This document shows, piece after piece, positions 14,971 to 57,600 of a stretch of DNA of 64,000 nt (positions are counted from its first letter, which is position 1; each line of letters opens with the position of its first letter). The stretch covers positions 4,581,338 to 4,645,337 of the forward strand of contig NC_088302.1 of NCBI RefSeq assembly GCF_032854445.1, read 5' to 3'. The translations under genes were made by a program, and so were the position numbers. The DNA comes from Liolophura sinensis (taxonomy: Eukaryota; Mollusca; Polyplacophora; Chitonida; Chitonidae). A model generated the notes under the pieces. The model was not told where the DNA came from. It ran no database searches and saw nothing but the letters and a program-made list of their open reading frames with translations.

Positions 14971-15066
14971 AGTATTTATTTATTTGCTTGATGTTTTACT
15001 GAAGAATATTTCACGTATACGTTGTTAGCCAGCATTACGGTGGGCAGAAACCGGGAAGAGCCGACC
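14971..15066 (-). mobile_element. SINE family 2 tail fragment
   Basis: TTTATTTGCTTGATGTTTTACTGAAGAATATTTCACG followed by GCCAGCATTACGGTGGGCAGAAACCGGG. Confidence 0.75.
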
Positions 15067-18622: not shown

Positions 18623-21600
18623 CTGAAATAACATTCACAGCATTTACATACAAGACTAAATATCGATCTAGCTTGTATTCAAAATTGATCTGTGAGGCCA
18701 CACAAAGAGTCTGCAGAGAATTTTTTTTTTTTCATAATCTGACTATTTGAAGAGGTTGTTGTACAGATTCAAGGATATTGTTAAACAAGTGTGCTTACGC
18801 ACGAATCTGACTTGTCTTGGAACGATCTCAGGTTCCACAAGATTAACCTTCCCCCCCCAAAATGTTAAGAAATTCTGACAAGACTAGTATTTGGAACACT
18901 TACTGCATGGAAACAAATGACCAATCAGATTCCTAAAATTCATTACACCTAAATAGGCAAAACTACAGAACAGGCTGGCTTGCAAATTTGATCAAAGGTT
19001 TTACAGAATGAATCTGCACACCAAATTTTAACGCAGGCAATATTTGTGTTACTGCACAGAAAGCAAAGAGTGATAAAAAGTGTCAAATGAATAAATTAAT
19101 AAAAATCCACACAATCAGGCACCAGAAACCCATTAGCAGTTCAAGTCATTCAGGGTTGAAACTTAATTGTTTTTTGTTTCATAGATTATTATTCTCCAAA
19201 ATTTTGCACCGAATCCCAACCAAACTATTATAGCACTGCTTCTGAAACTTTGCCATCTTATATTACACAATAATAAGTGATGCACTGGTGAAAAAAAACT
19301 GGGGGTTACAGGTCACATGACCTGGCAGCCAAACTGGATTAGTTACAATTTCTTCAGAAAACTTCTCCAAAACAACTGCTTCAACAGGCTTCATCCTAAC
19401 ATAGAATGGTTTCCCAAGACTTTCTGTTGATCTTATGTTTATTTTCATTTTGATTTTTATATAAACCAGTCTCCTGTGGCCATGTTTAATTGGCCAGGTG
19501 AGTCATATATCAGTTATGTTCCATTTTCACATAAGTGCAGTTAATTCCAAATATGGCAATACATTTGATTGAAAGGTTTAACATTTACCCGAAGTCGGAA
19601 AAGAAACTGAAAATTATCATAAAACATTTCTATATGTAATTTACCATGCCACGTTCAATGGTGCGTATCCCATTTCTGTAAACTACACAGCAGTCGAGCC
19701 AGACTGAATATCGTTTCAAGGCTGGTGAGCACAGCGAATGATACTCAGTCTAGCCTCCTGACAGCTTCAACCGATGAATGAAAAGGGCGATGAGCAAAGA
19801 GGTGAAGGCGATATAGTAAATCATGTAAACTGAGTGAGACATTATCTCGTTCATATCATGCAAACGTATACATCGATTGAATACATACCTGATGAAATAT
19901 GCATGTCTGGCTCAATTTTGTCAGCAGACAATTATGACATGATTAAAGTGTATTGTATGTGATATAAAACAAATGTTTCAAGGATTATCAAAGACGAAAG
20001 AAAACATGTCAGGACAATATTTGTTTCTTTGTTTCAATTTATTTACAGAATTTATCTTCTAGTTTTGTAGCGCCATTACTAGAGTGTGCAGCAAATGAGG
20101 TGCAGTGTGATTTGTAGCATTCAGGTCTTGAAGGTAACGAGGCAATCAACTGTGGAAATTCTGCATGTAACTCGTGTTCAAACTGCACGTGAAATATCAC
20201 ATTTGCTGCAGGTTGGTATTCAGTGGTACAATAGTGGTGACAAACAGTGAATGTGCAATATTCTTGTTTTACATCACAAATAATTGCTCATTTATTTGAA
20301 GGCAGCTCTTTTATGTGTAAATATTCGCTGTATTGCCACAAATAACATTTTTTCCTCTGAAATTTCCCAGGAATCTATGGTGTGGGTTAATGTCTCATAA
20401 GACCAGCCACATGTACAAAGCCTTGGGCTTGATTACTGCTTGACAATGGCCACAGGTTTAGAGAATGCAGTCACGCTGACTGATGTCGTTACGTAAAACC
20501 TCACCCAGGGCTTAGCTCATTCGCCATTCTACACACACTGCTTCCTGTACATGTACGTCACTTCAACACCAAGGGCAACAATGTATTTTGAGAGACATAA
20601 ATATTTCCCACATATCACCACAACATATGTCTAATCTACAGTAGCGTTTTAATATAACCACAATTACACGAGTGTGCTTCGAGACAAAGAATTCTAGAAA
20701 CACCCCAAGTAATTAATTTCGTGATAATAAAAACTGTAGGTTGATGAAGACCTCCTTCTGTCATAACTGTGTCAAAATCACATCACACGTAGTGCAGACA
20801 ACTCCAAATTTACAAACTTAAAAATTAGCTTTATCGGGTTAATTAAATTTTCAGACATATAACAAATATGGACTTTGTACATTTCACAAATTTCTCACAT
20901 AATATCATTAATTACAATCATTAAATTTTAAATATATATACTGAGTTTAATTAAATCTATTTCGAAAGTTATGTTTTCAAGTTGAGGTATATATGGAAGG
21001 AGTTAATAGCCGTGTGACTGAATGCATGGGTCAAGGGTGCATACATTCTGTGGGTTTCATAACATAATAACAAAGGTTATGTACTACTAAATAAGGCATC
21101 ATTAAGTTTTTATGTGTGTATTTTTCACATGTTATAACATGCATGAACTCATCGTATGCTTTCCTATCATTGGTTTATGGCCCATAAAAAATGGATGAGA
21201 TATCATAAAGTCAGAGGGAGTGGATATCAGACTGTCAGAGTGAGGGGATATCAGACTGTCAGAGTGAGGGGATATCAAACTGTCAGAGTGAGGGGATGTC
21301 AGACTATCAGAGTGAGGGGATATCAGACTATCAGAGTGAGGGGATATCAGACTGTCAGAGTGAGGGGATGTCAGACTATCAGAGTGAGGGAATATCAGAC
21401 TATCAGACTGAGGGAATATCAGATTGTCAGAGTGAGGGGATGTCAGACCAGAGTGAGGGGATGTCAGACCAGAGTGAGGGGATGTCAGACCAGAGTGAGG
21501 GGATATCAGACTATCAAAGTGAGGGGATATCAGACTATCAGAGTGAGGGGATATCAGACTATCAGAGTGAGGGGATGTCAGACTATCAGAGTGAGGGGAT

Positions 21601-24600
21601 ATCAGACTGTCAGAGTGAGGGGATGTCAGACCAGAGTGAGGGGATGTCAGTGAGGGGATATCAGACTATCAGAGTGAGGGTATATCAGACTATCAGAGTG
21701 AGGGGATATCAGATTATCAGAGTGAGGGGATATCAGATTATCAGAGTGAGGGGATGCCATACTGTCAGAGTGAGGGGATATCAGACTCTCAGAGTGAGGG
21801 GATGTCAGACCATCAGAGTGAAGGATGTCACACTGTCAGAGTGAGGGGATGCCACACTGTCAGAGTGAGGGGTTGTCATACTGTCAGAGTGAGGGGATAT
21901 CAGACTATCAGAGTGAGGGGATGCCATACTGTCAGAGTGAGGGGATATCAGACTATCAGAGTGAGGGGATGCCATACTGTCAGAGTGAGGGGTTGTCATA
22001 CTGTCAGAGTGAGGGGATATCAGACTGTCAGAGTGAGGGGATGCCATACTGTCAGAGTGAGGGGATATCAGACTGTCAGAGTGAGGGGATGTCAGACTAT
22101 CAGAGTGAAGGGATACCACACTGTCAGAGTGAAGGGATGCCACACTGTCAGAGTGAAGGGATGCCACACTGTCAGAGTGAGGGGATATCAGACTATCAGA
22201 GTGAGGGGATGCCATACTGTCAGAGTGAAGGGATGTCACACTGTCAGAGTGAAGGGATGCCACACTGTCAGAGTGAGGGGATGCCACACTGTCATAGTGA
22301 GGGGTTGCCATACTGTCAGAGTGAGGGCATATCAGACTGTCAGAGTGAGGGGATGCCATACTGTCAGAGTGAGGGGATATCAGACTGTCAGAGTGAGGGG
22401 ATGACAGACCATCAGAGTGAAGGGATGTCACACTGTCAGAGTGAGGGGATGCCATACTGTCAGAGTGAGGGGTTGCCATACTGTCAGAGTGAGGGCATAT
22501 CAGACTGTCAGAGTGAGGGCATATCAGACTATCAGAGTGAGGGGATGCCATACTGTCAGAGTGAGAAGATATCAGACTGTCAGAGTGAGGGGATGACAGA
22601 CCATCAGAGTGAAGGGATGTCACACTGTTAGAGTGAAGGGATGCCACACTGTCAGGGTGAGGGGATGCCATACTGTCAGAGTGAGGGGTTGCCATACTGT
22701 CAGAGTGAGGGCATATTAGACTGTCAGAGTGAGGGCATATCAGACTGTCAGAGTGAGGGCATATCACAGTCAGGGAGAGAGGATAATAAAGTTAGAAAGA
22801 GGGATATCATAAGATCAGAGTGAGAGGATATCAGACATAGTGAGGGTATATCACAGAGTGGGGGTATATCACAGAGTGAGGGAATATCATAATGTCAGAG
22901 TGAGGGGATATCAGTCAGAATGAGGGAATACTAGTCAGAGTGAGGAGATATCAGTCAAAATGGGTGAATACCAGTCAGAGTTAGGGAATATCATAATGTC
23001 AGAGTGAGGGGATATCAGACAGAATGAGAAAATACTAGTCAGAGTGAGGAGATATCAGTCAAAATGAGTGAATACCAGTCAGAGTTAGGGAATATCATAA
23101 TGTCAGAATGAGGGGATATCAATCAGAGTGAGAGGATCTCATAGTCAGGCTGAGGGGATATCACAGTCAGAATAAGGCAATACCAGTGAAAGTGTGGGGA
23201 TCTCATAGTCAGTGTGAGGGGATATCTTAGTCAGATAGAAGGAATATCATAGTCACAGCAAGGGGATATCATAAAGTCAGAAATAAGGGATATCACATAC
23301 AGTGAGGGGATATCAGACTGTGAAAGAGAGGGTATGTCAGTCATTCAAAGTAAGGGATATGATCGTCAGTGGGGATATCATAATCAGAAATATGACAGTC
23401 AGAGCACAGGGATATCAAATCCATAGAGGTTCAGTCAGAAGGCCAATTGGGTCCTGCAAAGGTGGTTCCAGTTCAGCTCTTATTCTTAGGTTAAGGCTAA
23501 AAGTTACAAATCTGGGGCCAATTCCTCAAAGCCATTTGTGACAAATGCAAAAAAATTTGAAAAAGCGCATTTTTCCACTTCAGAAATTTAAATTTTTGTC
23601 CACCTCATCCATATTATTTTAAGAGAAATGTGTCCAAATTTCAAATACTACAAACTAACAGCTGTGAAGAGATTTTAAAATTTGACTTAAGTAAGAAATG
23701 GCTTTGTGGAATCGGTCCCTGGAACTTGTGGAGAACAGCACTGGCTTCCCATTTAACCTTTCTTAGCCTTACTGGAACAACATAAAATAATTGCCACATA
23801 AATTAAAAGGTACTCAGGTACACACAAATAAGTTTACAAAGCCATGACAGCACAAGAGCAGAACCTGTATGTCATTGTTATAACCTGTCATCTGAGAGGC
23901 CTTACATAACCTAATGTCACACGTTTACATAACTTCACCAGGATGCTTATTCTTGTATTATTTTAAATCTGTCCTCAACAGAAAACGAATGCCAGGTCAT
24001 TTGATATAGGGTTTTAAATAATTACATTTTGGTCACTAGAATAATTGTTCTAATTACCTCCTCTACACGACAGAGGACTGTCCAACAAATACAACAATTG
24101 TCATATTATTCATTAGAAATGATGAGAGAACACACACATACATGTACATCTGTTTTTGTCTTTTACCACAAATTAGACTTTATTCCCAATTGATAAAAAC
24201 TATTGCAATAACCCATTAGTATAACAATATCTAGTGGTGCACTAATCTTGTACAGCACTGCTCTGTGTGAAGGCCGCATTGCATGCATTGTCCTGTAGAT
24301 ACAGTGTGCTGGTGCAGCTGGATCACACAGAGCCTGTGCTGACAGAGCTCAACATGATGTCTGATCATGCAGAGCCCCTGCTGATAGAGCTCAACATGAT
24401 GTCTGATCATACAGAGCCCCTGCTAATAGAGCTCAACATGATGTCTGATCATACAGAGCCCCTGCTGATAGAGCTCAACATGATGTCTGATCATGCATAG
24501 CCCCTGCTGATAGAGCTCAACATGATGTCTGATCATACAGAGCCCCTGCTGATAGAGCTCAACATGATGTCTGATCATGCAGAGCCCCTGCTGATAGAGC

Positions 24601-27600
24601 TCAAAATGATGTCTGATCATACAGAGCCCCTGCTGATAGAGCTCAACATGATGTCTGATTATACAGAGCCCCTGCTGATAGGGTTCAACATGAAGTCTGA
24701 TCACACAGAGCCCCTGCTGATAGGGTTCAACATGAAGTCTGATCATACAGAGCCCCTGCTAATAGGGCTGAACACAATATCTGATCATGCAGAGCCCCTA
24801 CTGATAGGGTTCAACATGATGTCTGATCATACAGAGCCCCTGCTGATAGAGCTCAACATGATGTCTGATTATACAGAGCCCCTACTGATAGGGTTCAACA
24901 TGAAGTCTGATCATACAGAGCCTCTGCTGATAGGGCTGAACACAATATCTGATCATCTCCTGCTGATAGAGCTCAAAATGATGTCTGATCATACAGAGCC
25001 CCTGCTGATAGAGCTCAACATGATGTCTGATTATACAGAGCCCCTACTGATAGGGTTCAACATGATGTCTGATTATACAGAGCCCCTGCTGATAGGGCTG
25101 AACACAATATCTGATCATCTCCTGCTGATAGGGTTCAACATGATGTCTGATCATAGACAGCCCCTGATGATAGGGTTCACCACAATATCTGATCATGCAG
25201 AGCCCCTGCTGAGAGGGTTCAACATGATGTCTGATCATGCAGAGCCCCTGCTGATAAGGCTCAACACGATGTCAGGTCATATGGAGCCCCTGCTGATAGG
25301 GTTCAACATGATGTCTGATCATACAGAGCCCCTGCTGATAGGGTTCAACATAAAGTCTAATCATACAGAGCCCCTGCTGATAGGGTTCACCACAATATCT
25401 GATCATGCAGAGCCCCTGCTGATAGGGTTCAACATGATGTCTGATCATACAGAGCCTCAACACGATGTCTCCCATACTTCTGTTATGCATTGATCGCTTA
25501 TGATGCCGACAACCTTATCTGGATGACAGTCCCTTGCAAGGGCAACCAGATTATAACACACATTCCTTTTACTAGAACATATGCATCAACTAACCTTACA
25601 GAACATCAATATCCTAGGAGCCCAGGAGCCCAGGAGCACAAAGTTGCCTTGGACTTAAGTCTGACTTAGTTTTTATTTGTTCTGTTATTCATGAACGAAA
25701 ACTGAAATAAAAACACTAATTTTCATTTTTATGATGAAAGTCTCAGCCAAATCTTTGTATTAACAAAAAAAAATTTTAAAACTGGTCACAATTTTAGTAC
25801 AGTTAAATGTTCTGACTTAAGTGAAAGACAGTTTCGTGATTGACAATGACAGCCCTAAAGATTGTAAAAGCCAGAATGTTGTCCAGTAAGTGCCTAAGCA
25901 TTCAGAGACCAATAGTACACCTTAACAGAACATGAATTTTCTTCAGCTGTACTAGTGGTGTTACTATCCATACATGTATAACACATTTTGAAAAGTGTGC
26001 GTAGTCTGAAAAAAATCATACTGCAGTCTTTAAAGAAGCTATTAAACTGCTCAACGTACATGTACATTAAATGCCGTTATGACTTAGTGCTTAAAGTGCA
26101 AGTGCAGCATATTGACTCAGGATTAAGCCTCTCACTAATGCGATCACGGTGAGTTCAGCTCGTGCCGGCGTCCTCCCTGCTCACACATGGGAAGATTTGG
26201 CATCAACCTGCAGATGGTTGTGGGTTTCCCACGTGCTCTGCCTGCTTTCCTCCTCATGTAATGCTGGCCACAGTTGTATAAATGAAGTATTCCTGAGTAC
26301 GGCTACACCCATGAAATGAATAAATCAATACATTAAATGTCATCTTTTTATGAGATCCTGTAACCCTCTACAAGAACATAATCAGAACTATGAATTGGTA
26401 GCGCATGATATTAAACACATCAGTTTTGTTATTAGTATGTTTTAATTTTGTGTTAAATTTCAACAATGTGATTAGATTTATAACACTTATATTAATACAT
26501 AACCCACAGCAATTCCATGTGCATGTACCATGTTAATGTTCAAGTGTTCAGGCTTTTGCATATAGTTTATATTGCTGACTTGGTGTTTCTCCTGGGTTTT
26601 AACTTCTTCTCTGATTCACTGTGATGACAAGCATGTTTATGTGTTCTATAAAACACAGAGATAAGGTACAAGTTTATACAGGACATATAGTACACTGTCA
26701 CTAGACACCTTTTTGTGTGTAACCAGGGCTGGGTAGCTGATCCTTCAAGCATGAAAACCACAGTAAAACAATCTACTCATTCTAGTATCCCTTGGTTGTT
26801 GATCATTTTTATGTGTAAATTCCTGAAGGTGATATCACCTTTGTATGCCAGGCTGACTGAAGCAGTTTTGAATTCAGCATGCCCATAGATCAAGGCATGC
26901 ACTGTTGCTCTTTCTTTGAAAAAGAGATTTCGTAACTCCAACAGATCATACGATTTACTCCTCCCTGAGGAAAACGGGGTAAGTAGTGGCAGTAAATGAT
27001 AAAACTGCATGATTAAGTATGAACAAAGGCAATAATGCATCTTTATAAATAACAGTTAAAATCCCCCCCCCCCCAATACACAAACACACAAATGCATTGT
27101 TAATGGCATATAGAAATCATAAAAAATAACTTTTAGTGCGGACATGTACATATTTCCAAGAATATTTTACTTTCAAACAGATATCAAACACTTTTTTCAG
27201 GACTCTCAGAATCAGGCAAAATGAGTAACTTTATATTTATATATTCAAACGACACCAACTGTATTTTGTGTTTTAAGGATGGGGCGACATTAAAAATCCA
27301 AACTTGGCATAAAACAAAAGTGAAAATCCACCTTTATATTTTGTCTTATGTTCATGCTTTTAAAAATTTCCTGTTTTCCCAAGGCTTTCCGATCACGTAA
27401 ATGTTTCTTAAACAGGAAATATTTCTGGGTTAATCCATATTTTCCACCATTTCAAAGATTTTCAGGTTTTATTTTAATATCATCCTTTGATACTGAAAAC
27501 AGATTTTTTTTCTAACATTCAAGCTTTAAAGTCAGATAGAGAAGCTTGTTAAAATTGCAAAAAACTTCCTTCCTGATAGCTACACCAGTACACCAAATGT

Positions 27601-30600
27601 TCAGAAATTGATTTGGCCAGCTGCATGGACAGCGCCACAGAGATTCCAGCTCAATTTCACCTTCCCGATGTCAGTTTGTAAGAGAAACTAACAAACATGC
27701 AGGTGTAGCACATGTGATCAGCTCAGCAGCTGCAGTGATTGGCTACTTTGGCATGCCCTGGTGATGAGACCTAATATCTGATTGGTCAGAGCTGTAGTTC
27801 ATTCATGTACCAGCCGCGAGACTGTGTCAGCAGCAGCCCTGATTGCATCAAGGCCCAGAGAGATCAGCTGATCAGGCGGGTTTCGTAAGCTTGCCAGCTT
27901 GTATAAGTGACCTCCCTAGAGAAATAACAGCTTTTGCCCAGGGTGGTTACAACAATGTGTAATCTTAAAAGCTCCAGATAAATTCCAAGGCCTCGAAGCA
28001 GTTAATACAGACATACCATGTACTTGTATAGTGAGGTTGTACCATGCATGAAGCTTCAGTTAAGTCAAAAAAAAAAAAAAATTTCTGATTTATATAACGT
28101 CTGGAAAAGAAAGGTGTCAGCATCTGACACCTACATGTATTGTTGTACTAACTAAAATAAATCCATCATCAGTAAGTACAACACAGTGACACGCGCCACA
28201 CACATTCCTACATAATTTACAACTACAAGTCTACTGCTTCAAAACCCTTAGCCAAGTGTAATCAGGGCACAGACAGGTATGAAAGGGCACATGATAAGTT
28301 AGAGATTGTGGACATTTGCTGACCCATGTCACGTCTTTTCCACACAGATTTATATATAACCACTTCAGCATCACATGTATGTACATGTGTGTATGTATGC
28401 AGGTGGACATTGTGTCAAAACACACAGTGATGTAAACATGGCATAATATTGATTCTCGGTGTGAAATACTTCAGAAAATTTACTGGGCAAAATAAGAGAG
28501 AGCAGATAATAGTCCATTTTACATGCACAACTGTGTGAAGCTAACACATGGTGCATCTGACATCTGACATTGCATAACTAAGTATGGCACATCTAATGCA
28601 GGGCACACATCTAGCGCATAGTACATGACACACTCATACCTAAACACATGCTACATCTGGCACATTGCATATCTAAACACATGCTACATCTGACACACAG
28701 CATATCAAACACATGATACATCTGACACACTGCATATCAAACACATGATACATCTGACACACTGAATCCCTAAGGCTTGCTACATGTAACACACTGCACA
28801 TCAAACACATGCTACATCTGACAAACTGCATACCTAACACATGGTACATCTGACACACTGCACACCTAACACATGCTACATCTGACACACTGTATATCAA
28901 ACACATGCTACATCTGACACACTGCATATCAAACACATGGTACATCTAACACACTGCTTACCTAAAACATGCTACATCTGACACACTGTATATCAAACAC
29001 ATGCTACATCTGACACACTGCATACCTAACACATGGTACATCTAACACACTGCTTACCTAAAACATGCTACATCTAACACACTGCTTACCTAACACATGC
29101 TACATCTGCCACACTGTATATCAAACACATGCTACATCTGACATACTGCATACCTAACACATGCTACATCTAACACACTGCTTACCTAACACATGCTACA
29201 TCTGACACACTGTATATCAAACACATGCTACATCTGACACACTGCATACCTAACACATGGTACATCTAACAAACTGCATACCTAACACATGCTACATCTA
29301 ACACACTGTATATCAAACACATGCTACATCTAACACACTGCATACCTAACACATGCTACATCTGACACACTGTATATTAAACACATGCTACATCTAACAC
29401 ACTGTATATCAAACACATGCTACATCTGACACACTGCATACCTAACACATGGTGCATCTAACACACTGCTTACTAAAACATGCTACATCTAACACACTGC
29501 TTACCTAACACATGCTACATCTGACACAGTGTATATCAAACACATGCTACATCTGACACACTGCATACCTAACACATGGTACATCTAACACACTGCATAC
29601 CTAACACATGGTACATCTAACACACTGCTTACCTAACACATGCTACATCTGACACACTGCTTACCTAACACATGCTACATCTAACACACTGCTTACCTAA
29701 CACATGCTACATCTGACACACTGTATATCAAACACATGCTACATCTAACACACTGTATATCAAACACATGCTACATCTGACACACTGCATACCTAACACA
29801 TGCTACATCTAACACACTGCATACCTAAAACATGCTACATCTAACACACTGCTTACCTAACACATGCTACATCTGACACACTGCTTACCTAACACATGCT
29901 ACATCTAACACACTGCTCACCTAACACATGCTACATCTGACACACTGTATATCAAACACATGCTACATCTGACACACTGCATACCTAACACATGGTACAT
30001 CTAACACACTGCATACCTAAAACATGGTACATCTAACACACTGCTTACCTAACACATGCTACATCTGACACACTGCATACCTATACACATGGTACATCTG
30101 ACACACTGCATATCAAATACATGGTACATCTGACAAACTGCATACCTAAACACATTTTACATCTAACACACTGCATATTAAACACATGGTACATCTAACA
30201 CACTGCATACCTGACAAATGCTACATCTGACACACTGCATACCTATACACATGGTACATCTAACACACTGATGTGTCACTGACGTATGCAATCATACTCT
30301 TTATCAGATAAGCTATTCAGAGGCAACGTAGTGCAATGAGTTACTCTCTATCTGCACAATGTTTAGGTCTTATGAAACATGTCAGAGATGTCAGTGCAGG
30401 ACACTGAATTCAAATTTACAGACGGACACAGACCCCCATTACAACTTCCGTTTTTCAGTAGGGACGATTGTAGTTCTGTGTATTTTAGGGTGTAAAGTCT
30501 TTTTTTGCTGCCAGCCTGCCGTTTTTGGTGTACAGGTGCATGCTTGGTATCAAAATGATGGAAATTGTCTAAGCTTTGGGCAGGTATGAGTTTTAACGGT

Positions 30601-33600
30601 GAAAAAAACGCTCTAAAACGCTCTGTGGTCAAGGGTAGTACAGGAGTATAAACAGGCTGGAACAAACACAGACAACGTTTCATTGTTCCTGGTTTTTAAA
30701 ATGTCTCTTTTGGGGCTGACATTTGATAAATAATGCAAAATTTGAGTGCTGCGAGTGAAATTGGAGTATGTGGCTGATAGATAGGGTGGTGTGATTAAGG
30801 ATGGTCAATAAGGCCTTGTATCACATATAAGGGCCCAGCCTCACACAGGTGGATAAAAACACATCAGCAGATTAATTTACTTGGCTAGAGTAGTAGAGAG
30901 GGCCAGTGTGCATTTAATTTACAAACCAAGTCAGGTTCCTCCCATGTGTGCCACCACACACTAGGTAAATGTGCTTCAAATCATCCTGCAGGTCACAAAA
31001 CATTAAAAACAGGCATCTCTGCTGCAACACTGTCTGCTGTTTTGGGCATAGACTTGAAGTGGACAAGGTAAATTTTCCTCTTTAAACTTAAAAATAAACC
31101 ACTGTAGGCATGTAGTTTTCATTGCATGTGTATATTCATTCCTCTGACAAGTTACATGTGCACTCACACAGTATGTGTGGCGTTGGAACAAAAATGATCA
31201 ATTTCAAGTTTCTAGCATACATGTAAGTGTGATCTGTTGGAATATTGCCCTTGTGAAAATGAGTCTCTGCCCCACCAGGTGTCTGTTTCTCCACCAGAAC
31301 ATAGTACGCTGTTCTTGCGACATCTCAAGGAGTTTTTGTTTTAGTATCTGGCCCAGTGTGGCATCCACCTCCCTGGGCAACTGGGATTTTTTTTATGTTT
31401 CCAATGTCCTCACACACAAGTTAGAAAATAGACAGCTACATACGGCTTTCACATCCTAGTTTAATACCTAATGAGCTTTCGTCTTGGTTTCCCTCTTTAG
31501 ATCTTGTCTCCCAAACATGGCGTCAGTCAACTTTGCCTGGTTTATGCATATATTGAACTGGGATCTACCTAGGTGAGTGGGGTCTGCTAGCCGTTCAGCT
31601 TCCTCAAAGGCCTGACCATTCGGATGCAGTCTTCCACTCCCTTGGCTGACCTAGAATCCCCGTCAATGGTCCGGTACTACACCATGACACATACCCCTCC
31701 AGCCCCCCCCCCCCCCACCACCACCAACCGGGGAAACGTCACAGGTTTCTCATATATGTACGGACAGTTTGAATGTCCATTCCTCATGCCCACCCAGGAA
31801 CACCCAGTGTGGAACCTGATTACGGATGTAATTTCTCACTGATTATTTGAGGATTTCTGTGTTGTTACAGGTTAAGAAGTATAGCTTTTCCCCTCTTCTT
31901 GGGTCCCTTCAACATGTCTTGGGAGGGTTGCCTTGCTGACTGTCTGAATGACCAATGTGCATGTACTGTGTGGCTTTATTTTTGTAAGTGGCAAATTCAT
32001 ATTTCTCCCCTCTACGTATCTCTTGTAGATGCCAGTGTCACACTTTGGTGTTTGTTATGTGGAAAGTACTAATTTAGTCTGAGGCAACAACACAGGTGGT
32101 GGGATTCTTTGCACTGTGAGTTGAGGTAAGCAGCCAACCAATGGCAGCCATGTGGGAGACGGGAAAGGGGGGTAGTGGGGGGGGGGGGGGGGGGGTAGTG
32201 GGTGATCTTTTAAAGGGTTTTGTCATGTGAATCACTATGTAAAAGGGATACTAGTCTTTTCTTTAGCCTTATCCATGGAAACTGTGCCTATGAGCATTTC
32301 TATATCAATTTGGATGCATATGTTTACTTTGATGGTGATGAAAATGTACTTTTCTGGAATTTTGAAACTCTGCTTTGCTACCCACCTGTATCACTTTAAG
32401 TCAAATTTTGCACAAAGTTGCTAAAAGGTATGTCCTATATTTTGTAAGTGAATTGTCAGATAAATTACCTGTCTTTTGATATATATTTTGACACTTTTGG
32501 CTTTTAAGTATTTTCTTAACACTGCTGTAAACAAGAAAATCTACATGAAAATCCATAATTTTCTAAATGTTTGTCAATGGAAAATGTAAAATACTTTGTC
32601 ATTGGAATTTTTTCATTTTTCTTGCAGATATACATACCAGCTTTCCAAAACATTTGACCTGGTTGAGATATTTTGAACGGTATGTGCACTACAGAGCTTT
32701 GAACTTCGTGCTTGAGGACGGACAAACAGACACATTTCCAAGATAGGGGTACCCCAAGTTAAATTCCTCCTACTCAAAAGTTTTTGCATGTATCAAGCTG
32801 TAACTTTATGTGTGAGGTTTAGAGGTAGTAAGCATTATGTGGTGCAAAAATTATTGATTTTGAAAAAAGTTGGCTGGTGTGATAGGACACAGACCCCCAT
32901 TACAACTTCCGTTTTTCAGTAGGGACGACTGTAGTTCTGTGTATTTTAGGGTGTACAGTCTTTTTTTGCTGCCAGCCAGCCGTTTTTGGTGTACAGGTGC
33001 ATGCTTGGTATCAAAATGATGGAAATTGTCTAAGCTTTGGGCAGGTATGAGTTTTAAAGGTGAAAGTTTGAAATGCTGGGCGAGAGGACACAAGGAGACA
33101 GGTGGTGATGAGGCTGCGAGTGACGTCCCCTTGGCGTTGCTAGGCACCCCTCCCAGCTGCCGGCATGGAAAGGTCCAGATTTTGACGGTCAACCTATGTC
33201 AAGATTTTTACAGCTTCTTTCTCACAGGCTGGGCCAGGTATGTACCAAAGCTTATTGGCCTCGGAATGTTTGGAACTGAGCTACAGCGCTAAACGTTAAC
33301 ATTGTCGCTTATGGAAAACTAATGGGGGTCTGTGGCCAGACCACTAAGTGTCTCAAGGGAGATAACTTTGTAAATATTGCAGAGAATGGCCTGACAGGTC
33401 TATCTATGAATAAGTTCAGGTCACTTGGGTCTCATGTTTGCTTTCAGACAACAGCCGAGCTATTTGTAAAGCAGTCAGTCTGTGCATGGCAGGTCGTGGA
33501 TTCATATGTGGAAGAATGAACTTGCTCTTATATGGGCCATGTTTTTTTGTGTTATTTCTTACATAAACCATGCTAAGCCTGAGAAGGGATCGCTGTTTCT

Positions 33601-45600: not shown

Positions 45601-48600
45601 GAAAATTAAAACACAAGTTAACAATTCATGAGGTGAGACATTTTAAAAACATAAAGTAAAAAGCTTTTTATAGAGGAAAATCATACAGTTTATTAAAATG
45701 TTCCACAGCAAAAATGGTCACAATACCTGTAGTTATTGTAATGATACTATCTGTTAAATTTACCTATAATTAGCTCATCATGATTATTAAAACAGTGCTC
45801 TGTCCTAAAAGTACTTCTATCTATAGAAACAAAAGTCCATTTTTAACCATAGTTTACGATGGTATCTATAAGATCAATCTTCTCATTTTAATATTTTACT
45901 GCCTTAATTGTCTTAAGGCTAGACATTATGTAAGGCATGATGTCCTCACTGATATGAGCCACAACGAAACTGACACTTGCTCAAATTTTATCTTACCTCT
46001 ATTAACTGATATCCTGGGTTTATTTGATCAGCTACATGTACGCTACGGTCAGGATTCTATACAGTTACAGACTGCATGACCTCTATAAAAACAGACAAAT
46101 CTGATTTTTTTCTCAGCATATGGAAATTAATACGTCTGCATGCATTCATTTAACTTAATTAGTACTAATTTTTTCATATGGAAAGTTTTTTATGAATATA
46201 TGTGCAGGAGGAATGCATGCACCTTGCATCCATGTTGAACAATTAAAGTACGGCTGATTAAAAAATTTTGTGAAACATTTTGAATAAGAGGCTATACTGG
46301 AGATAACTCCATATTCAGGTTTTCTCTATTTACCAAGAACAGCTAATATTATTACTTTCCAGGGAATATCAAACTTGTGCTGGTAATATTGATAGTGTTA
46401 AAATGATTGTTAAGTTTGAAAAAGTTATAAAGACAGTCTCACTGTATATTTGAACAGTAACACATGTACACATATTAAGTGCAAGTATACAGTTGTCAAA
46501 AATCTCCCTCTCTCCCAGCAGTTAATAATGGCTCAGTAAATTAAGGCAGATGATGTTGGACATTGCTACCTTGATTAAATGAAGATAGTACATACATGAA
46601 AAAGCATACTACACCAAGTGTCATCTACGATGTATCTGTTACCTAACTCTGGTGAAAATAAAGAAAATAAGTTTAAATCATAGGAAAGATGTACCAGGGT
46701 ACAATAAATTTCATACAAATCTGCGCTCTAGGACAAAATCAGTTCTGTAGACTTCCAAGTGCCTTAAGGGGAGCCATGGTGTATTGATGTAAGTCGTACA
46801 AAAAAATTATGCTTGCAAAAATTAAAAGCACTTTAAAATTGTTTTTCTTACATAAGCTCAAAATATTGCTTGATAACATAAGTTTTTGGAAGTTCTTGTT
46901 AAGCAAATTTCAGCTAAATTAATGAAAAGACACCTGAAAAATTTAATGACTTAAATTTTGACTTAAGTCTAAGATCGCTTTGTGATCCTGTGGCTTGGGA
47001 AAAATACATACACAAATTTTCATGGAAATCAAGAGTAATATTTCTGAAGTTGGATGGGCAAAATCATGTCTGCAGGGCCAAGCTGGTTGATTCTTAGCTG
47101 AGGGGCAGGTTTGGGTCGGATCCGGTTGGGTTGAATGGAGCATAATAACACGAACTTTAGCAGAACGAGCTAGAGCAAATCAGTGCCACATTCTACAACA
47201 TTCCCATGCAGTACAGCCCAGAAATAGCTGGACATCCAACAGGCATAAAACAGAATAAAATTAGTCGTTTTTTCAGCTATTCTGCTGTCTGTGTACATCA
47301 AACTGCGATGACTTTGCGACTACAGAATAGTGTTATAGCATTCATGTTTTCAGCATGTGCACAAGCGCATTTATTTTCTCAGTGCCCTGTTGTCTAGACT
47401 GTGCAGTGTCAGATTCACCATCAAATAAAAGCGTTGATAAATGATCGTATAATGTAGCAAGGCATTCAGAGAACACCAGTAGCTCACCTGCAATAATGTG
47501 CGGGTCAGGTGACACGTTCAAATAATAGAACATGTGTTTACTACAGAAAACAAAGTGCAGTTCATCGAACTGGTAACTTTTTACATTAAGAGTCTATCAA
47601 TCAAAATGACTAGCAACATTCACAAAGCCAATAAAACTAAAACGAATAAAAAAGTTTAACCTTCCATCAGTGGGCTCAATGTAGATGTACACACCATCCA
47701 TGAAAACAGTATCAAAGACAACAGCATAACTTTCTATCACTGTATGTTGGAGCTAAGAAAAGCTTAACCTTCAATTCATAAATGAGTGCCCATTATACAG
47801 ACCTGAGCTAAAAAAAAACTTAACCTTCAATCCATGTGTGAGAGCCCAATATACCGGAGCTAAAAAAAATTTAACCTTCAATCCATGTAAGAGAGCCCAA
47901 TACACAGGAGCTAAAAAAAAAGCTTAACCTTCAATACATGTATGAGAACCCAATATACAGGAGCTAAAAAAAAAGCTTAACCTTCAATCCATGTATGAGA
48001 GCCCAATACACAGGAGCTAAAAAAAAGCTTAACCTTCAATCCATGTATGAGAACCCAATATACAGGAGCTAAACAAAAAGCTTAACCTTCAATCCCTGTA
48101 TGAGGGTCCAATATACAGGAGCTAAAAAAAAAAGCTTAACCTTCAATCCATGTACGAGAGCCCAATACACAGGAGCTAAAAAAAAGCTTAACCTTCAATC
48201 CATGTATGAGAACCCAATATACAGGAGCTAAAAAAAAAAAGCTTAACCTTCAATCCCTGTATGAGGGCCCAATATACAGGAGCTAAAAGCTTCACCTTTC
48301 ATCTCAGTAGTATACATTTACACACCATACAATGTACATGCACTTCAAACCAGGGAGCTAAACAACCAAAAAGCTTAACCTTCAATCCCTGTACATGTAT
48401 AAGAGCCATGAAGTGCCACATTGTTCATCGTCCACTGTGGGAGTGCCACATTGTCCATCATCCACTATGTGGGAGTGCCACATTGTTCATCGTCCACTAT
48501 GAGGAAGTGCCACATTGTCCATTGTCCACTATGAGGGAGTGCCACATTGTCCATTGTCCACTATGAGGGAGTGCCACATTGTTCACTGTCCATGTGGGAG

Positions 48601-51600
48601 TGCCACATTGTTCATCGTCCACTATGTGGGAGTGCCACATTGTTCATCGTCCACTATGAGGAAGTGCCACATTGTCCATCGTCCACTATGATGAAGTGCC
48701 CCATTGTTCATCGTCCACTAAGATGAAGTGCCCCATTGTTCATCGTCCACTATGATGGAATGCCTCATTGTTCATTACTATTTACTGCTCATGCTGCTGG
48801 GTCTTATAATTATTCACATCAACAGAAAAGTAGCCGTGGTCTACTGGTCTTAAGGTGCTTGCCTTTCAAATGTAAAAGACATGAGGTGCTGGTTCAAACC
48901 CAATCTTGGAGACAGACTTCTCCCATTCTTGCGGAGCCTTCATGACAACAGGGGGTGAAGTCTAACGTCTGGTCTGAAGATCACTTATCTTTTCCACGAA
49001 TGCAGCATTCATATCTATGCATTTTCTATGCAAATAGCAAATTTCGCTCATAACTTGAAAGGCCAGTGGTTTACCCCCCTCACTCAGGATTCCTCCACCC
49101 ACAAGACTGACTGCCACTGTATAAGTGAACAATTCTGGAGTAAGTCATTAAACATCAATCAAATAAAAAAATAATGACATTTATTCACAATGGTAAGTCA
49201 GATTTAAATCACAGCACCTCTTAAATGTCTGTTTTCTCTGACATTTGACCATTAAATATCATGCACATTTGAGAACATTTTCTCTCTACTTGAAACCTTT
49301 AATATTTTTGTAAAACCCTAAAGTCATACATCTCTGCACATGAGATAATCTATTTGCTTTCGTACTAACAAAAAAAAATTGGAGGTATTTATACCTAGAA
49401 GAAAACGCCACAGTTGCACAAAAACTGTATACTTAACGAGCCCACATGTACAGGTATGGTATATGTTTGCAACGTGTTTATTTAAGCATATTCCGAAGAC
49501 ACTACCCTAATTCCTCAGCCTACTTCAGATGTGAAAGGTTGAGCAATTAGGGTTATATGAAACTACTACTTTTCAGTAGTATATAATCCTACTATCCAAC
49601 AAATCTTAAAACACCTTTCTAAGATCGACAGAGTTCTCAAAATTTGGAACACAGATTTCGTAGCAAAGACACATCAATGCAAAACTGCAGCTAAATACAT
49701 GAAGTACTGAAATCGTAAATTTGGTAACTTACAGTAATTAATACACAACACACTAAGTCATGAATTCAGTACTTTATAGTATTTAATATGTACACACTGA
49801 ATCAACAATGGAATATCCCCCTTGTGCTATTGTGCTTTGTATGTGTGCAAACCCTGATCCCTGCAGTGCCATTTGAGATACCACCCCCAACATTTTGTTT
49901 AACATTGCATTCCCTGTCATTGGACGCCTGAATCTAATGCTCAGGCTACGACATCAGCTATGTTCATGTTTTGTACGTGCAAGCCAAAAATGTACACCAA
50001 GTTATGGGTGAAATTTTAAGTCATTCACAGTACACTGTAGTTATATGTCTCATGAATGTACCCACATCACCCACACTCCACATTCACAACTTTCAGAAGT
50101 TTTACAGAACAGTACTTCAGCATCACACCCATGACAGATGAAACTGGACCGCCTAATCCAATCAACCTTTAACTTGTTCTTGTCAAGGAATTCATCACTT
50201 GATTTTTTTCCATTTCTTTCCAAAAATGTTCTAATAGTCGTGACAAAGCCTCTGTCATAACTTTTTACCTCCACTGAATCTCCACAACTTACAGACTTGT
50301 ACCACGACAAGGATAAAGTCTGGCTCAAGTACATGTATTTTTTTTAATCAGATGTCATCAAAGAGTGAAAAAAAATCTATTTAAAACTAGTTGGCATTTA
50401 CATTTATTGTTTTCAAGGATGTAATCAGCTACGTCTCAAATTAACCTGTGCTGGTCATAAAACTTTACTGTTACAAGGGAAAGACAGCATAAACATAGTT
50501 TTAAGTATAAGAAGAAAGATCATTAAAACTGTATCTAAAAATACCTTCATTCATTTTTTTAGATTTTTCCACTGAATTAAATGCACTCAATGTTTTGGAT
50601 TGTAAGGTGAGCTGTATGGATCACACTGATTCTCCCTGCTGCCAAGTGAGGGCCGTATGCAAATATACACTTATATTAGGAGGAGAGGGATCGTTTAAAC
50701 ATTGAGTATGTCACACAAAATCTGGTATATATACCTCTCCGAATGATATCCTGTCATGCTGTTTATCTGTGCAAAAAAAAATAAAGGGTTGGAGCTTTCA
50801 GATTTGCTTTTATTATTTGTATAAAGGTCAAATATCACGATTTCCTTCGGTTTCAAAAGCATGATTTCACACAGTTTATAGATATTTTGCTGCTGTGTAT
50901 TCTTGAAGTTTGACTGGGTACAAAACAAAGTCCATCGGTATCTGGTTACACAATAAACACCAAGACAAAGGTGTTAGAACCAATAATGTCACATCCACTT
51001 ACCCGTTCTCTGGTTCTAAAAAAGGTATTTAATGTGAGATTTGGTATGAGATTGCCAGAGGGTAATTTCATTCATAATACCAGGTGTTCAGATAAAAGTC
51101 CATGGACTCTGCTTATGCTTTAATCACCACTCACACGCAAATTATTCTGATGATTTAGCGATAAACAATTCAACGCAAGCATAAACACAGCAGTTAAATT
51201 TCACAACTCTCAGCCCTGAACAAGTATGTATCCCTAAACAGAACCACAGTGCTTCAATTTGCTTATATTCCAACTGGCAAAGTTATCTTAAGAAAAACAT
51301 CTCACAAAGAAAGTACCGTGCATTCATGGTACAAACTAAGGTGACATACACCCTTAAGACAAGACAAATCTCACAAAAATTTTGTACAAAACTTGCTTAG
51401 TCCCATTTTTACTCTGGAATGTTGATGTGGCACATTTTGATAAAAACTGACAACATGGTTTTGAGTGAGTGAGTGAGTGAGTGCTTGGGGTTTAACATTG
51501 TACTCAACAATTTTTCAGTCATATGACGACGGAGGAATCCTTAGGGTGCATGTATGTGTAATGTGTCTCCTTGTTGCACGACAGATTTCCACCGCTCTTT

Positions 51601-54600
51601 TTATTTAGTGCTGCTTCACTGAGACGACTTACAGAAGGCAAGTAAGCCGCCCCGCCCAAGCCATTATACTGATACGGGTCAACCAGTCGTTGCACTATCC
51701 CCTTCATGCTGAACGCCAAGCGAGGAAGTTACAACTTCCTCTTTTAAACTCTTAGGTGTGACTCGATCAAGGATTGATCCTGGATCTACCGGTCCCGATG
51801 CAGATGCTCTACCAACTGTGCTATCCAGGCCGGTCACAACATGGTTTTGGAAAGCTACAAATGTCTAGAAGTAAGCAACTCGTATAAAAACGCATTGTTG
51901 GTGTGCTAAACAGGTATGATTATTTAAGTGCCTTTGTACCAACAAGGTAGTACTCCGTTCCTATACTTTTCTATGAAAGGAGGTAATGAGGTCGTCTGGA
52001 TTGGACATGTCGTACCATTTGTCTCCCAACAATGAACGATTATTCCAAACTTTGAGCCATTCACCACAGGCCGTGTGCATGTACATGTAATAACAAAAAT
52101 AATCAGCACAGAACATCACTGTGAGTTCAAGTCCAGCTCATGCTGGCTTCCTCTCTGGCTGTATGTGGGAAGGCTCTGCCTGGTTTCTTCCCACCATAAT
52201 GCTGGCTGCCATTGTGTAAGAGAAAATATTCTTGAGTACGGCGTAAAACACCAATCAAATATATAAATAAATAAATTAAGACAGAACATTACATTTCACA
52301 ATACCTCAAATCGTAATTAAAGCAATGTTTGATTTCCTAAAACATCTGAACCTGCAGAATTATAGTGTGCTTAAGGTTGGTCCAACGGTACAAACTGAAC
52401 TGTCGGAAACAGTAACTGGAGAAGTGTGGAGTAAAAGCTTTGAGGACTTTATGTAATCATTCAACCTTTTCAGGGTGTACTTTTATCATTCATTATGATA
52501 CAGTTCTGATAATTTTATAAATCCGACATCCTGGTTTTATTTAGATAATAATTTTATGAATAAAAATTTCAATGAGAAATTTTCTTCAGGCTTAAAGGGT
52601 TGAACAATTACAGCAGTTATTGGGTAAAACAGCATTAGAAAAAAATTAATATATAAATGATTTGATGTTACCCATGGAGATAAGCTATCATAACCTTTCA
52701 TTAATCAACTTTTTCATTTTAGGAACAAATGTCGCAAACACGATCAGAGCACTTGAAAAAAAGAAACAGAGCAGAGGTAAGAGTTCTAATCTCACTATTT
52801 TTACTTCACATTTATTTCACCTCTTGAGAACAGTTGCACTGTATCTGCTCATCAAGCTATACATAGCAGACACAAAAAAGGCGTGCTCCAGACGTATCTA
52901 TTTTACTGCCTGTAAAAATAAACCCAGAATTATCTGTGACATTTTATATTATGGCCCAACAAATTTCTTATTCTTGATGCATGGAGATATCTGCTATAAA
53001 TGATAGCAGTTATTTGCCTTGCTCATCAATCATGAGAAAAGTGTTGAGAAAGCATAGACTTTCTTGCATAAACATGTCAGAAAATTTGGGAATGGCAGAA
53101 AGATATACTACACAAAGGAAAATAATAACAAAAACATAGAGATAAAATACAAATGCAAGTATATAAAAACTCTAGATAAATCAGCAATGTGAAAAGTATA
53201 TGTTCTTATTAAAAAAATTACTAAACTACATGTAATTTACAATTTTTACTCCTTGATGAACAGTGGCAGCTTTGTCCTTGTGTTGATCTGACAGTTTTCA
53301 AGTCCCTACACAACAAACTACTCTAATTTCTTCTAATTTTTGGGACACCTGCTCTGCTCATAATGGAATATTTAGTGCCTTTTTCCTCACATGGTTAGAC
53401 CATCTAAAGAACAACACACTCATATCTTTACTTTTACAAACAGTTGAGAAAGAAATAATATTCTGCTTTCAGCACTGCTGTTAGACGACCAACAATTCCA
53501 TATATCCATGTAACACATGTCCATGTCCATAGCTGTAGAGCCATCACTTACTTAAACTGCCTACAGTTAAGGTTTACCTCAATGACACATATATCAAATT
53601 CTAAAATTAGAGATAAACTAGTTAACAGCGAATTTCTACATGTACCCTTTGTGTGTTCTAACATTCTGAATGACGGACATTTAGGTACTGTTCCAAAATT
53701 TTTGTGATCTATCACCGAACCTTATCCTCTAACGGTGATAAATTTAAGGCATCATAACCTCAAGTACTTGAATTTATCAGTGGACTTTATTGAGCTTTGT
53801 GACAGTTGAGCAGCAATTTTTCCATAAAATGTTTCTGCAGCAATCAAAAGACTACATCAACAATCAGAAAACTTTACGCCTTTGCTAACACCACCACGTT
53901 ATGTATTACCCATTCAGTTGTTAAAAGACAGGTATCAAGAGAGGTGTGATTGACTTACTGATATTCATTCACTTTGTTTAATGCCGTACACAAGTTATTT
54001 TCACTTGTATAACAGCAGTCAGTTTTGGGTGTAGGAAATTGGAGAGCCTGGAGCAATTCACCGACCTTCGTCAGTTTAATACCCGACATACTTTTTGACT
54101 TTCTCTGATGACGTCTTAATAATGTCCCATACCATTTTCCACATTAAAGACCATATGACATACAATTTTACCAAATAATGTGCATTCTTAGAGGCATTTC
54201 TCATATCAATTCCATTATTCGGATAATAGAACTCAAAAATACTTACTAACTCATCCTTACATACCCCTTATTGCCCCCACCCCCCAAAACACACACACTT
54301 AAGTATTAAGTCTCAATTCAGATTTACACTATCTGCGTCATTTATGTCTATGTTCTATCATATAGCTTCAACCTACTTATTCGTTTTTTTTTAAATCTAG
54401 CTGAAACAAATAGGAACCAGAAAAATCCATAAAACTGATGGATGTCCCTTACAACTGATGGATGCCCTTTTCAACTGATGAATGCTTCTTACAACTAATG
54501 GATGCCCTTTACAACTGATGGATGTGCCTTACAACTGATGGATTCCCCTTACAACTGATGAATGCCCCTTACAACTGATGGATTCCCATTACAACTGATG

Positions 54601-57600
54601 AATGCCCCTTACAACTTGGATAAACAACTAAAGAACACCATATATTAAAACTGACCGTAGCACATATCAGAGTTGGCTTACGACCACAGAAACGCACATC
54701 CCTGAACACTGACAGTAGGAATGGCATCCAAAACTCTTTGCTAAAGTCCCACTTAATCACAAGATCTTTACAAACCTGAGTGACTCAGTACTCCCACTTG
54801 ACAGTTTTTCAGTAATTTAATTAATCTGACGTGTTAATCCTAAGTGGAAAGTTACCACACAAGCAAAATACCAACAAAGGCAAAGGTGTTGTAAGTGATG
54901 TCAAATTTATATAATGATGTCATATATACAGGTATATATGTATAGGTATAGATCTTCAAAAGTTCTGCTCTGAAAATTGGCCCGGTAATAAATAATTATA
55001 ATTCAAGAATGAATTCTACAGTTAATAACCTTGGATGATATAACCCAATACCTTGGACAAACTGACAACCTTTCTTGGACGATTTGACTCGTATTCTTAC
55101 ACACAGGGTTCAAAACATATAAACCCCCTCAAACTCCATACAGTCCATGAAAGTTGCTAGGGAATAATCACACAAGGCTAACTGTAAAAAAAAAACTCTG
55201 TAATGTTTGGTATCTCTGGTGTATACATGTATTTATAAACACATGTAACCATCAACACCTAGATGGTTCCTGTCAGTCCAGGCTACAGAAGGGAGACAAC
55301 TTTTACCTATGATTCACATGCAGACAGTTATCTTCCCTGAATATACAGTAACTTCAGGTGTCACAAATCAATGCATCAGAAATTTGACCCTATATTTATC
55401 AAGCCTCAGGTCAGATTCCAAATTCTGATTTTAAATATGAATATTGCACAGTCCGTTGGGAGTATGGCATCTGATAATCTGAAATAAATCCACTGAATTC
55501 CAATTACAAATTGCAACCCTTACTGAAGCAAATCAAATACTGAGTTTTCCTAAAATTCTCAACCAACTGATACCATTCCATTGCGTTCACTCTATAACAA
55601 TCATTTGGTGTACACAAACACACAATGTGAGTCATATTTCTGTGAAATCTCAACACTTAGTCAGAACATTTAATCATAATGTGCAACATAAAATATTCTT
55701 TGATTCATGTAAGATAATTAGCATTAAAAGACATCTATAAGATGAAGATTACAATTTTGAATGAGCAGTTTATGTAGTGACACTGACAAATAGGCTGATC
55801 AGTAAGCACAATTTTAACCATTATTACAAAAAAACAGTGTCACAGTGGTGCACTGTCATGCTTAGAATGAAAAAAGAAAAACGGCACCATCACCTTCTGC
55901 CTTAGGCCACGATATTTGAATTTTGGAAATATTTTAACCAGTCCCTCGGAACACGTCCATTTATTTATGACTCCAGCTGATGTATGTAGTGTTGTCTTAC
56001 TGACAATTTTCATGTTTTACAAAATGGAATCGTACTGTTTCTGTTTATTCATGTATGTTATAGAGGGCTCCTGTGAAGAGCAAATTGTACAATTTGACAG
56101 AGATGCTCTCTTTAAATAAAGGTTTCATTCATTCATAGACTGCTATAGCAACTTACCTCAAACATGTGAATCTTGCCATCACTGAGGGTCATTTGCATCA
56201 TAACACTTGGCTCCAACACTCTATTTAAAGCACTGTTGACAAAAAGTTTAAATATCAGAATTACATCTACAATGATAAAATTATCTAGTTTTGAAGAAAC
56301 CACTCCTTTCAGGCAGAGCCAAAAATATATTATTCTCAGATATGTTGTTGCTGTCTGCAATAAAAATTGTTTTCATATATATGCATACTTATTGCACATA
56401 AAAGTCAATATACAAGTATGTCCAAATAAGAGCAGATACAGCACAATGTGCAGAACTCACTCAACTAGTGTAATTTTAATACAATTACAAAGGCCATGAG
56501 ACATCTTGAAGTAAAAATGTAATAGCACTAGTAATATCAGCACTAGTAATATCTGTCCCAAAAATCAGAACAATTAGGGTAATAAACAAAATACATGTAA
56601 TAAATACAAGTGCCTTAAAACATGGCAAAATGTAACCACTGTATCATGGATAAACACATTCACCGTTATTACAGATTTCTATGATGCCAATCACATTGCA
56701 ACGCATATGTGAGAATATAAAGGTCATTTTACCTGGTTGAGATGCCAACATCTACTCTCCAGCTGAAGTTCTCCAGCTTTGGCAATCTAGGTCTGTTATG
56801 CAAGGAGTAGTCCTCAATTTTGGAGCGTCTGTACAATTCATGAGAACATGTCACAAATATTAAACTGATGACATACATTTCTGCTTGTGTCAACATCTGC
56901 TTTCTTAACATCATACTGATGTTTGCACCAACACTTAGAAAATGGTCCATGATTGTACTCTATCTAAGCAGAGCATTGAAACACTATGACACAGCAGGCC
57001 TGTTACAGTAAGACCGCTCTGGTTTATCTATCTCCAACCATTGTTCATTTACTTACTTGGTAATTCATTTTGTACATGTACACCAATAGCGTTTTACTAT
57101 TGTTTGGAGAACATACGATTTCACAGTTTCAAGAATCACCATCAAAACTGTATCTATTAGTGATCTTTTCTTTAATCTATGTCCTCTGGTCAAAAAATTA
57201 TTACATCATATGTGATGTATTCAAATCCACATATTAGCTTTTAGACGTATATATGCCTCAGACAGGCAACATATGAATTTGAATACAAAACTAATATGAG
57301 AAGAAGGCAGCTGTCATCACCTGGCTCCAAACACAGCACTGGCTATATCAGCAATGAAATCTTCAGGAATGCTGCAAAGCAAAAGAAAACTTGGAATAAG
57401 TATGTTTAGGGAGATGAAAACTTATCTCTCATGATTCATGTCTTATGAAGATTTCACGTATATTTCACTTACCCAGTACCTATCAGGATTAAGGAGAAAA
57501 AAACCTACTCAAGGACTTGATGAGCATCCTGACAAGAACCTGCCCCCCTACCTGGCCACACCAGGACTTGAACCAACCACCTCAATGGTCCAGGGTTATT

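Follow-up and report, generated by a model that had tools for sequence, protein, structure and literature searches.

Minisatellite arrays in a long COMMD5 intron of the chiton Liolophura sinensis and their probable local birth

The last intron of the housekeeping gene COMMD5 in Liolophura sinensis is unusually long and rich in minisatellite arrays. The reading that we favor, and to which we give high credence, is that the intron is long and belongs to a genome bearing minisatellites in many places and probably still making them, with the arrays born where they now lie. Since minisatellite arrays are common in this genome, the intron is rich in them and not exceptional.

The COMMD5 gene and its last intron

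COMMD5 lies on the minus strand of the window (the whole stretch of 64,000 nucleotides that was analyzed) and comprises seven exons, with GT-AG boundaries at six of six introns and 666 nt, or 221 aa, when the exons are joined. Exon 1, in its coding part from the ATG (59362-59512), was placed by the gene model and the match to the human COMMD5 protein, and exons 2 (58873-59033), 5 (56733-56828), and 6 (56157-56232, with donor GTAAGT) by the gene model and genome tblastn. The short exons 3 (58127-58155, 29 nt) and 4 (57321-57371, 51 nt) follow from frame and GT-AG, while exon 7 (18521-18622, with acceptor TTTCAG), which holds the last 33 codons and the stop, is supported by the gene model, the human match, and genome tblastn. 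Human COMMD5 chains align with residues 15-221 of the chiton protein, last exon included (E = 2e-56); all four PDB sequences matched by this protein are COMMD5 by name, and Pfam identifies COMM_domain (E = 2.4e-16) and COMM_HN (E = 1.2e-7) in it. A tblastn search of the 609-Mb assembly returned five COMMD5 matches, all inside the window, collinear, and on a single strand, and no match to exon 7 outside the window. The intron between exons 6 and 7 (intron 6, 18623-56156, minus strand) is real in the sequence, and its splicing is predicted.

The preliminary description had put the terminal exon 37.5 kb from the previous one and all earlier introns below 1.7 kb, and both statements hold: exons 6 and 7 are 37,534 bp apart, and the other five introns measure 328 to 755 bp. 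Compared with the chaperonin genes, in which 39 of 39 exon gaps are at most 10,043 bp, such a length is unusual. A Pfam scan for nested genes, covering 28 of the 65 intronic open frames of at least 65 aa outside arrays and two inside, gave nothing over the curated cutoffs (the best score, E = 0.0063, came from a frame inside an array), and neither Rfam at the gathering score nor ARAGORN produced a match across the window.

Tandem arrays and their genomic background

Within intron 6, Tandem Repeats Finder (TRF) reports 14 arrays of at least 184 bp, with percent matches from 82 to 100, belonging to 13 unit families of 20 to 90 bp, in agreement with the earlier count of at least thirteen arrays of unrelated 20- to 90-bp units. 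They have the properties of minisatellites, namely, tandem units of about 10 to 100 bp in arrays above chance: the tandem-repeat share was 0.05 to 0.07% in three sequences generated by an order-1 Markov model with matching composition, compared with 28% here. The claim that the intron is built largely of minisatellites is an overstatement, because tandem repeats cover only 28.3 to 28.4% of it (10,647 of 37,534 bp). They are concentrated in positions 21199-48775 (38%), leaving 1.8% in the remainder, and no array comes within 1.5 kb of exon 6 or exon 7 or duplicates a splice boundary. Those matched in the window only are the 24-bp array (21199-23315, 83% match, its right end organized in a 104-bp higher-order unit), the 42-bp array (24321-25456, 27 units, 86%), the first 32-bp array (28626-30270, 51 units, 87%), the 60-bp array (33639-35226, 26 units, with a 241-bp higher-order unit), the 64-bp array (39204-40232, 16 units, 91%), a 32-bp array of a second family (48408-48775, 11.5 units), and the 20-bp array (54433-54616, 9 units).

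How unusual this content is was judged against the tandem-repeat share of 21 genome cuts of 10 kb each, which averaged 12.2% (bootstrap 95%, 7.4 to 17.5%). The earlier suggestion that such density is unusual for one intron thereby gains mild support: intron 6, at about 28%, is some 2.3 times denser than the sample mean, but two of the 21 cuts are denser still (41.9% and 34.0%). The mean of four sampled cuts reached the density of intron 6 in 0.8% of resamples, a figure that ignores genomic clustering, and the 15 array rows of the intron, against 5.9 expected, correspond to a P of 0.001 under a Poisson model and of 0.014 to 0.058 with overdispersion. Given this excess in both density and array rows, some local enrichment may be real. 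One could go further and see the interval as a fragile site, or as a special hotspot in which something acting locally, for instance replication stress or a recombination hot spot, promotes the birth of arrays; that the arrays differ in unit identity and that one block has been duplicated, all within 27 kb, would fit this view. We nevertheless consider such a special cause unlikely: in addition to the two denser cuts, array counts in the genome sample are themselves mildly clustered (variance/mean, 1.75), and the locus, at 4.6 Mb on a scaffold of 58.4 Mb, is not terminal. In the published repeat catalogue of the assembly, simple repeats, microsatellites, and RNA together amount to 0.08% (PMC11068029, Table 6), a lumped category that leaves the minisatellite share unnamed; this share may be within the 14% of unclassified repeats (PMC11068029).

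Evidence for array birth within the intron

Local birth of the arrays is supported by two observations, both drawn from genome searches, and the preliminary description's proposal of repeated local birth thus finds backing. First, 12 of the 13 units had no array elsewhere in searches of limited sensitivity. This privacy comes mainly from two unit searches in which all candidates were scored (11 of 11 and 3 of 3); these missed diverged single units of 41 and 90 bp that were later seen via their flanks, so that diverged relatives of other units may have been missed too. Likewise, the window together with 15 of the genome cuts (21 in all) yielded 53 array rows of at least 150 bp, and no unit was common to different loci. 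One relative of the first 32-bp array, a 15-bp array (C3) without clear shared flanks, was not counted as shared.

Second, for three arrays the host is a dispersed element, and examined copies of it elsewhere carry one unit. The 41-bp array (37369-37573) consists of exactly five identical units, without an extra matching base at either end, and is therefore probably young or recently homogenized. Much of the stretch around it (36950-37900) is matched by other copies of the element, and in a search with the best 40 of 366 candidates scored, 14 of 14 examined copies held one unit; ten had been chosen because left and right matches already met there, and the other four for good flank matches. One copy, L053, has about 25 extra bp beside the unit, 13 of them unit-like (12/13), perhaps a partial second copy of it. 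The 44-bp array (35225-35420, 4.5 units) similarly has one unit in the three other copies of its element. For the 90-bp array, flank-anchored alignment and spacing indicate one unit in five of seven other copies, two being uninformative; when the 90-bp consensus served as the only blastn query, no unit was detected in these seven. This array occurs in two successive blocks with a lag of 604 bp (40690-41874), each consisting of a 128-bp leader and a 90-bp array (40820-41295, 95% match; 41429-41874, 90% match). The leaders are identical at 127 of 128 positions, and the 604-bp duplication took in both leader and array.

The surroundings of the remaining arrays are less uniform. Searches for host elements covered the arrays of 41, 44, 90, 53, 64, 42, 26, and 57 bp and the first 32-bp array. 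They placed the 41-, 44-, 90-, and 53-bp arrays within dispersed elements, whereas the 64-, 42-, and first 32-bp arrays had dispersed DNA on one flank only. Matches to the dispersed left flank of the 64-bp array end before the array begins (best 40 candidates scored). No dispersed host element was found for the region of the 26-bp (44189-44603, 16 units, 93% match) and 57-bp (44710-44939, 4 units, 98% match) arrays, which gave a single match in the genome search. For the 53-, 41-, 64-, and first 32-bp arrays, the best 40 candidates were scored in each flank or unit search, and since there were more candidates than that, the copy numbers are lower bounds. The genome searches of the assembly revealed no second haplotype of the locus. 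A pair elsewhere in the genome, C39 and C1 at 86.01 Mb, was considered as haplotypes (98.3% over 951 bp) but dropped, as the alignment extended over no more than about 2.1 of 10 kb.

Alternatively, transposable elements (TEs) with satellite-like subrepeats could have brought the arrays into the intron. This most likely holds for the 53-bp array (47749-48288, about 10 units), which appears to have arrived with an element already carrying subrepeats: its unit recurs on many chromosomes in variable number (at least, with the best 40 candidates scored), and the upstream flank is common to five of 16 examined copies. The one-unit state in other copies that marks a TE-derived minisatellite was found for the 41-, 44-, and 90-bp arrays and not for this one. 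As a general account, however, import by TEs is highly improbable, given that the searches showed no array of the other 12 unit families elsewhere and that, for three of the 13, it is contradicted by the single units in the examined element copies. Least credible of all is a misassembly or a wrong last exon, with noncontiguous gene parts or a true terminal exon near 56 kb: although the exon 6-exon 7 join is predicted from sequence and HiFi depth is modest (14X; PMC11068029), the window contains no N and intron 6 thus no scaffold gap, HiFi reads average 8.3 kb (PMC11068029), more than the 2.1 kb of the longest array, and the human COMMD5 match is carried to its last residue by exon 7, which is matched nowhere else.

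Proposed origin and comparison with known systems

For local birth, we infer the following course. Segments of 20 to 90 bp within intron 6, either single-copy DNA or old dispersed elements, would have served as starting material and been tandemly duplicated in place; the arrays would then have grown by gains of whole units, through slippage or unequal exchange, and the units diverged. The arrays would need no function, and they would be removed on splicing. Microhomology at array births showed no excess, the leftover unit fraction being at most 10 bp in 10 of 28 well-preserved arrays, with 9.3 expected. It is possible, if rather doubtful, that de novo minisatellite birth proceeds at an unusually high rate across chiton genomes, with about one-tenth of the Liolophura genome in locus-private arrays that began by near-blunt tandem duplication in the absence of long homology at the start. 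If true, the one-unit "before" state kept in dispersed element copies would make births datable and countable genome-wide. For COMMD5 itself there is little consequence, the intron being long with apparently neutral repeats; the main use of the locus is that, in a genome where arrays are abundant, element copies at other sites display the state of several arrays before their birth.

In the name CgHINE, Cg refers to an oyster. The 53-bp array resembles TE-carried satellites such as the CgHINE Helentron elements, a likeness that concerns variable subrepeat number, not element class or terminal features (PMC9659126). As in the amphioxus "mirages," for which unequal exchange has been proposed as the cause of length change, minisatellites occupy introns of an invertebrate; unlike these, the chiton arrays keep at least 1.5 kb from exons and leave splice boundaries unduplicated (PMC3087553). 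Another chiton, Acanthochiton rubrolineatus, has a Tandem Repeats Finder cover of 9.21% of the genome (Table 4 of PMC11545220), a total only, which is near our all-period sample value of 12.3%.

Taken together, intron 6 illustrates a known process well, in a genome rich in minisatellites. In the passages of Ahmed and Liang (2012) considered here, 23% of human minisatellites and satellites are TE-derived, and postulated mechanisms account for only 6% of these cases (PMC3389668). As there, internal element segments became tandem arrays with later local growth; unlike in the human case as those passages present it, the chiton has three such arrays in one intron and a sampled tandem-repeat share of about 12%, and other element copies in its genome show the one-unit state. 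The chiton genome may therefore supply many examples of how the first tandem duplication starts (cf. the same passages of PMC3389668).

Tandem arrays and their one-unit counterparts

Intron 6 of COMMD5 (18623 to 56156, between exons 6 and 7 of this minus-strand gene) holds 14 arrays of at least 184 bp as detected by Tandem Repeats Finder (TRF), which fall into 13 unit families with 82 to 100% match and units of 20, 24, 26, 32, 32, 41, 42, 44, 53, 57, 60, 64, and 90 bp, the last of these present twice. This agrees with the preliminary description, which had counted at least 13 arrays with units of 20 to 90 bp, but not with its statement that the intron is built largely of minisatellites: tandem repeats cover only 28.4% of it (10,647 of 37,534 bp, two tiny rows included), with 38% in 21199-48775 and 1.8% in the remainder. 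Three Markov control sequences contained 0.05 to 0.07%.

These arrays, the 53-bp array apart, were very probably born in place, within a minisatellite-rich genome. A local segment would first have been tandemly duplicated and would then have grown by whole units, which would explain both the arrays facing one-unit copies elsewhere and the several divergence states of the arrays. The earlier suggestion of local array birth is favored by sequence comparison, with single-unit copies for the 41-, 44-, and 90-bp arrays and no close outside array found for 12 of the 13 unit families. The 41-bp array sits inside a dispersed element, and alignment to flank, one unit, and flank placed one unit of 37 to 43 bp in all 14 other copies fetched, 10 of which had been chosen since the element search already suggested one unit. 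By blastn, 13 of these copies have one unit and the 14th has none; in the alignment, the latter is identical at 30 of 41 positions. One copy (L053) carries about 25 additional bp beside the unit, partly unit-like (13 bp match the unit at 12 of 13 positions), perhaps a partial duplication that arose independently at the equivalent place. Because the intron 6 array has five units, all identical, whereas on the left-hand side other element copies mostly match at 73 to 82% (40 of 366 candidates scored), expansion or homogenization of this array is, judged by these identities, far more recent than its host element.

The 44-bp unit is single in all three outside matches; its array is comparable on the right flank only, common over 63 to 128 bp, because the left side adjoins the 60-bp array in the window. 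As for the element around the 90-bp arrays, five of seven fetched copies cover both flanks, with 68 to 99 bp between them (one unit being 90 bp), one covers the right side only, and one the left side only; the consensus unit by itself had no blastn match in these seven. In the window, this region repeats itself at a lag of 604 bp (95% over 581 bp), giving two blocks that both comprise a 128-bp leader and an array. Given that the leaders are identical at 127 of 128 positions and the array parts only about 94%, the block was likely duplicated, and array turnover may have followed. The DNA around the 26- and 57-bp arrays was found nowhere else in the genome (1 of 1 candidate), and the 64-, 42-, and 32-bp arrays each have one dispersed flank, whose matches end before the array.

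Short repeats at array ends were not in excess among 28 well-preserved arrays, and the ends of the 41-bp array have none; duplication by end joining or template switching would fit as the starting step. No open frame above cutoff was found by Pfam among the 30 scanned in the intron, nor any Rfam or tRNA match in the window, and the arrays need no function to be explained.

Unit privacy and the genomic background

Doubled consensus units from 53 array rows of at least 150 bp (the window and 15 of 21 sampled 10-kb genome cuts) matched same-locus neighbors only. Searching the genome with eight units (24, 42, 32, 44, 41, 26, 20, and the second 32 bp) yielded 107 matches, 104 of them in the window (11 of 11 candidates scored); the other three were single, 42 to 47 bp long, and all to the 44-bp unit. 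For the 60-, 64-, 90-, and 57-bp units, all 41 matches lay inside the window (3 of 3 candidates scored). Since these searches missed diverged single 41- and 90-bp units, revealed later by flank searches, such privacy means that no close relative was found. One array resembling the 32-bp array turned up on another contig (C3), but its unit measures 15 bp and its flanks are not clearly shared; it was not taken as a shared array.

The background was sampled, with TRF settings unchanged, in 21 cuts spread over the 13 chromosome-size contigs, with one to three per contig, at positions chosen by hand without a random generator and mixing genes and intergenic DNA. Their tandem repeat content averaged 12.2% (bootstrap 95%, 7.4 to 17.5%; median, 7.9%; range, 0 to 41.9%). 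The array density previously called unusual is above the sample mean, yet two of the 21 cuts are denser. Rows of at least 150 bp occur at 4.0 per 10 kb in the intron (15 rows) versus 1.6 per 10 kb in the 210 kb sampled (33 rows), and 0.8% of four-cut resamples reached the intron's density, a figure that takes no account of correlation along the chromosome. When overdispersion is allowed for, the number of arrays has a P value of 0.014 to 0.058. The intron may be enriched to some degree; that the interval is a special hotspot of array birth or a fragile site is improbable. A heavy tandem-repeat load is not peculiar to L. sinensis, as TRF covers 9.21% of the genome of the chiton Acanthochiton rubrolineatus (PMC11545220, Table 4). 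The published repeat catalogue lists 0.08% for simple repeats, microsatellites, and RNA together and 14% as unclassified (PMC11068029); the sampled cuts stand near 12% against that 0.08% entry.

Further arrays lie outside the intron, at 8546-9336, 12104-12472, 15640-16252, and elsewhere in 1-18520, a stretch with about 13% tandem repeat, near the sample mean. Upstream of COMMD5, a 43-bp array occupies 63553-63960 (9.5 units, 97% match).

The COMMD5 gene model

A mis-assembly or a wrong last exon is very unlikely. The seven coding exons, on the minus strand and bordered by GT-AG, add up to 666 nt (221 amino acids), residues 15 to 221 match human COMMD5 chains (E = 2e-56), the COMM and HN domains score above the Pfam cutoff, all five tblastn matches in the whole assembly (632 contigs, 609.46 Mb) fall in the window in order, the window has no N, and the longest intron 6 array (2.1 kb) is shorter than the mean HiFi read of 8,347 bp (PMC11068029). 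The assembly was first published as Liolophura japonica (PMC11068029), a name later corrected to L. sinensis (PMC12441733). The 37.5-kb last intron noted initially is borne out in the sequence at 37,534 bp, the other five measuring 328, 717, 755, 492, and 500 bp. Compared with a housekeeping gene family of this genome it is long, as 39 gaps between neighboring Cpn60_TCP1 matches at 10 loci (49 of 50 matches, a solitary one being omitted) span only 171 to 10,043 bp (median, 1,131), a small one-family comparison whose largest gaps run across exons missed by the search.

Dispersed elements and known minisatellites

The 53-bp array belongs to a dispersed element (47528-48288), and its unit alone was seen on many chromosomes among the matches listed (40 of 316 candidates scored). 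Sixteen fetched copies have 3 to 12 unit matches that vary in completeness, and five (L022, L028, L032, L033, and L036) have 134 to 221 bp of upstream flank in common with the window copy; most likely, the subrepeats were already there when the element spread. Several copies have a common tail past the last unit, which is unclear in the window copy.

An element of about 2.9 kb at 30424-33340 has same-strand end repeats (181 bp in common, 97.8% alike). Its end sequence is identical over 77 to 79 bp in 27 of 38 listed genome matches, and ten pairs on the same strand are spaced by about 2.9 kb. A copy on contig C6 is 98.0% identical over 2,678 bp and has no open frame above 115 amino acids; the element looks like a recent non-autonomous repeat. 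A plus-strand stretch at about 55930-56138, which ends in AATAAAGGTTTCATTCATTCAT some 20 bp away from the donor of exon 6, resembles by eye the 3' end of a LINE-like element, carrying a short tandem tail.

Our literature search, covering titles and the starts of abstracts of mostly non-subscription papers, found no work devoted to minisatellites in chitons; for one chiton, a TRF total is available (PMC11545220). Minisatellites arising in dispersed elements are already known (PMC3389668, PMC9659126), as are intronic minisatellites (PMC3087553).
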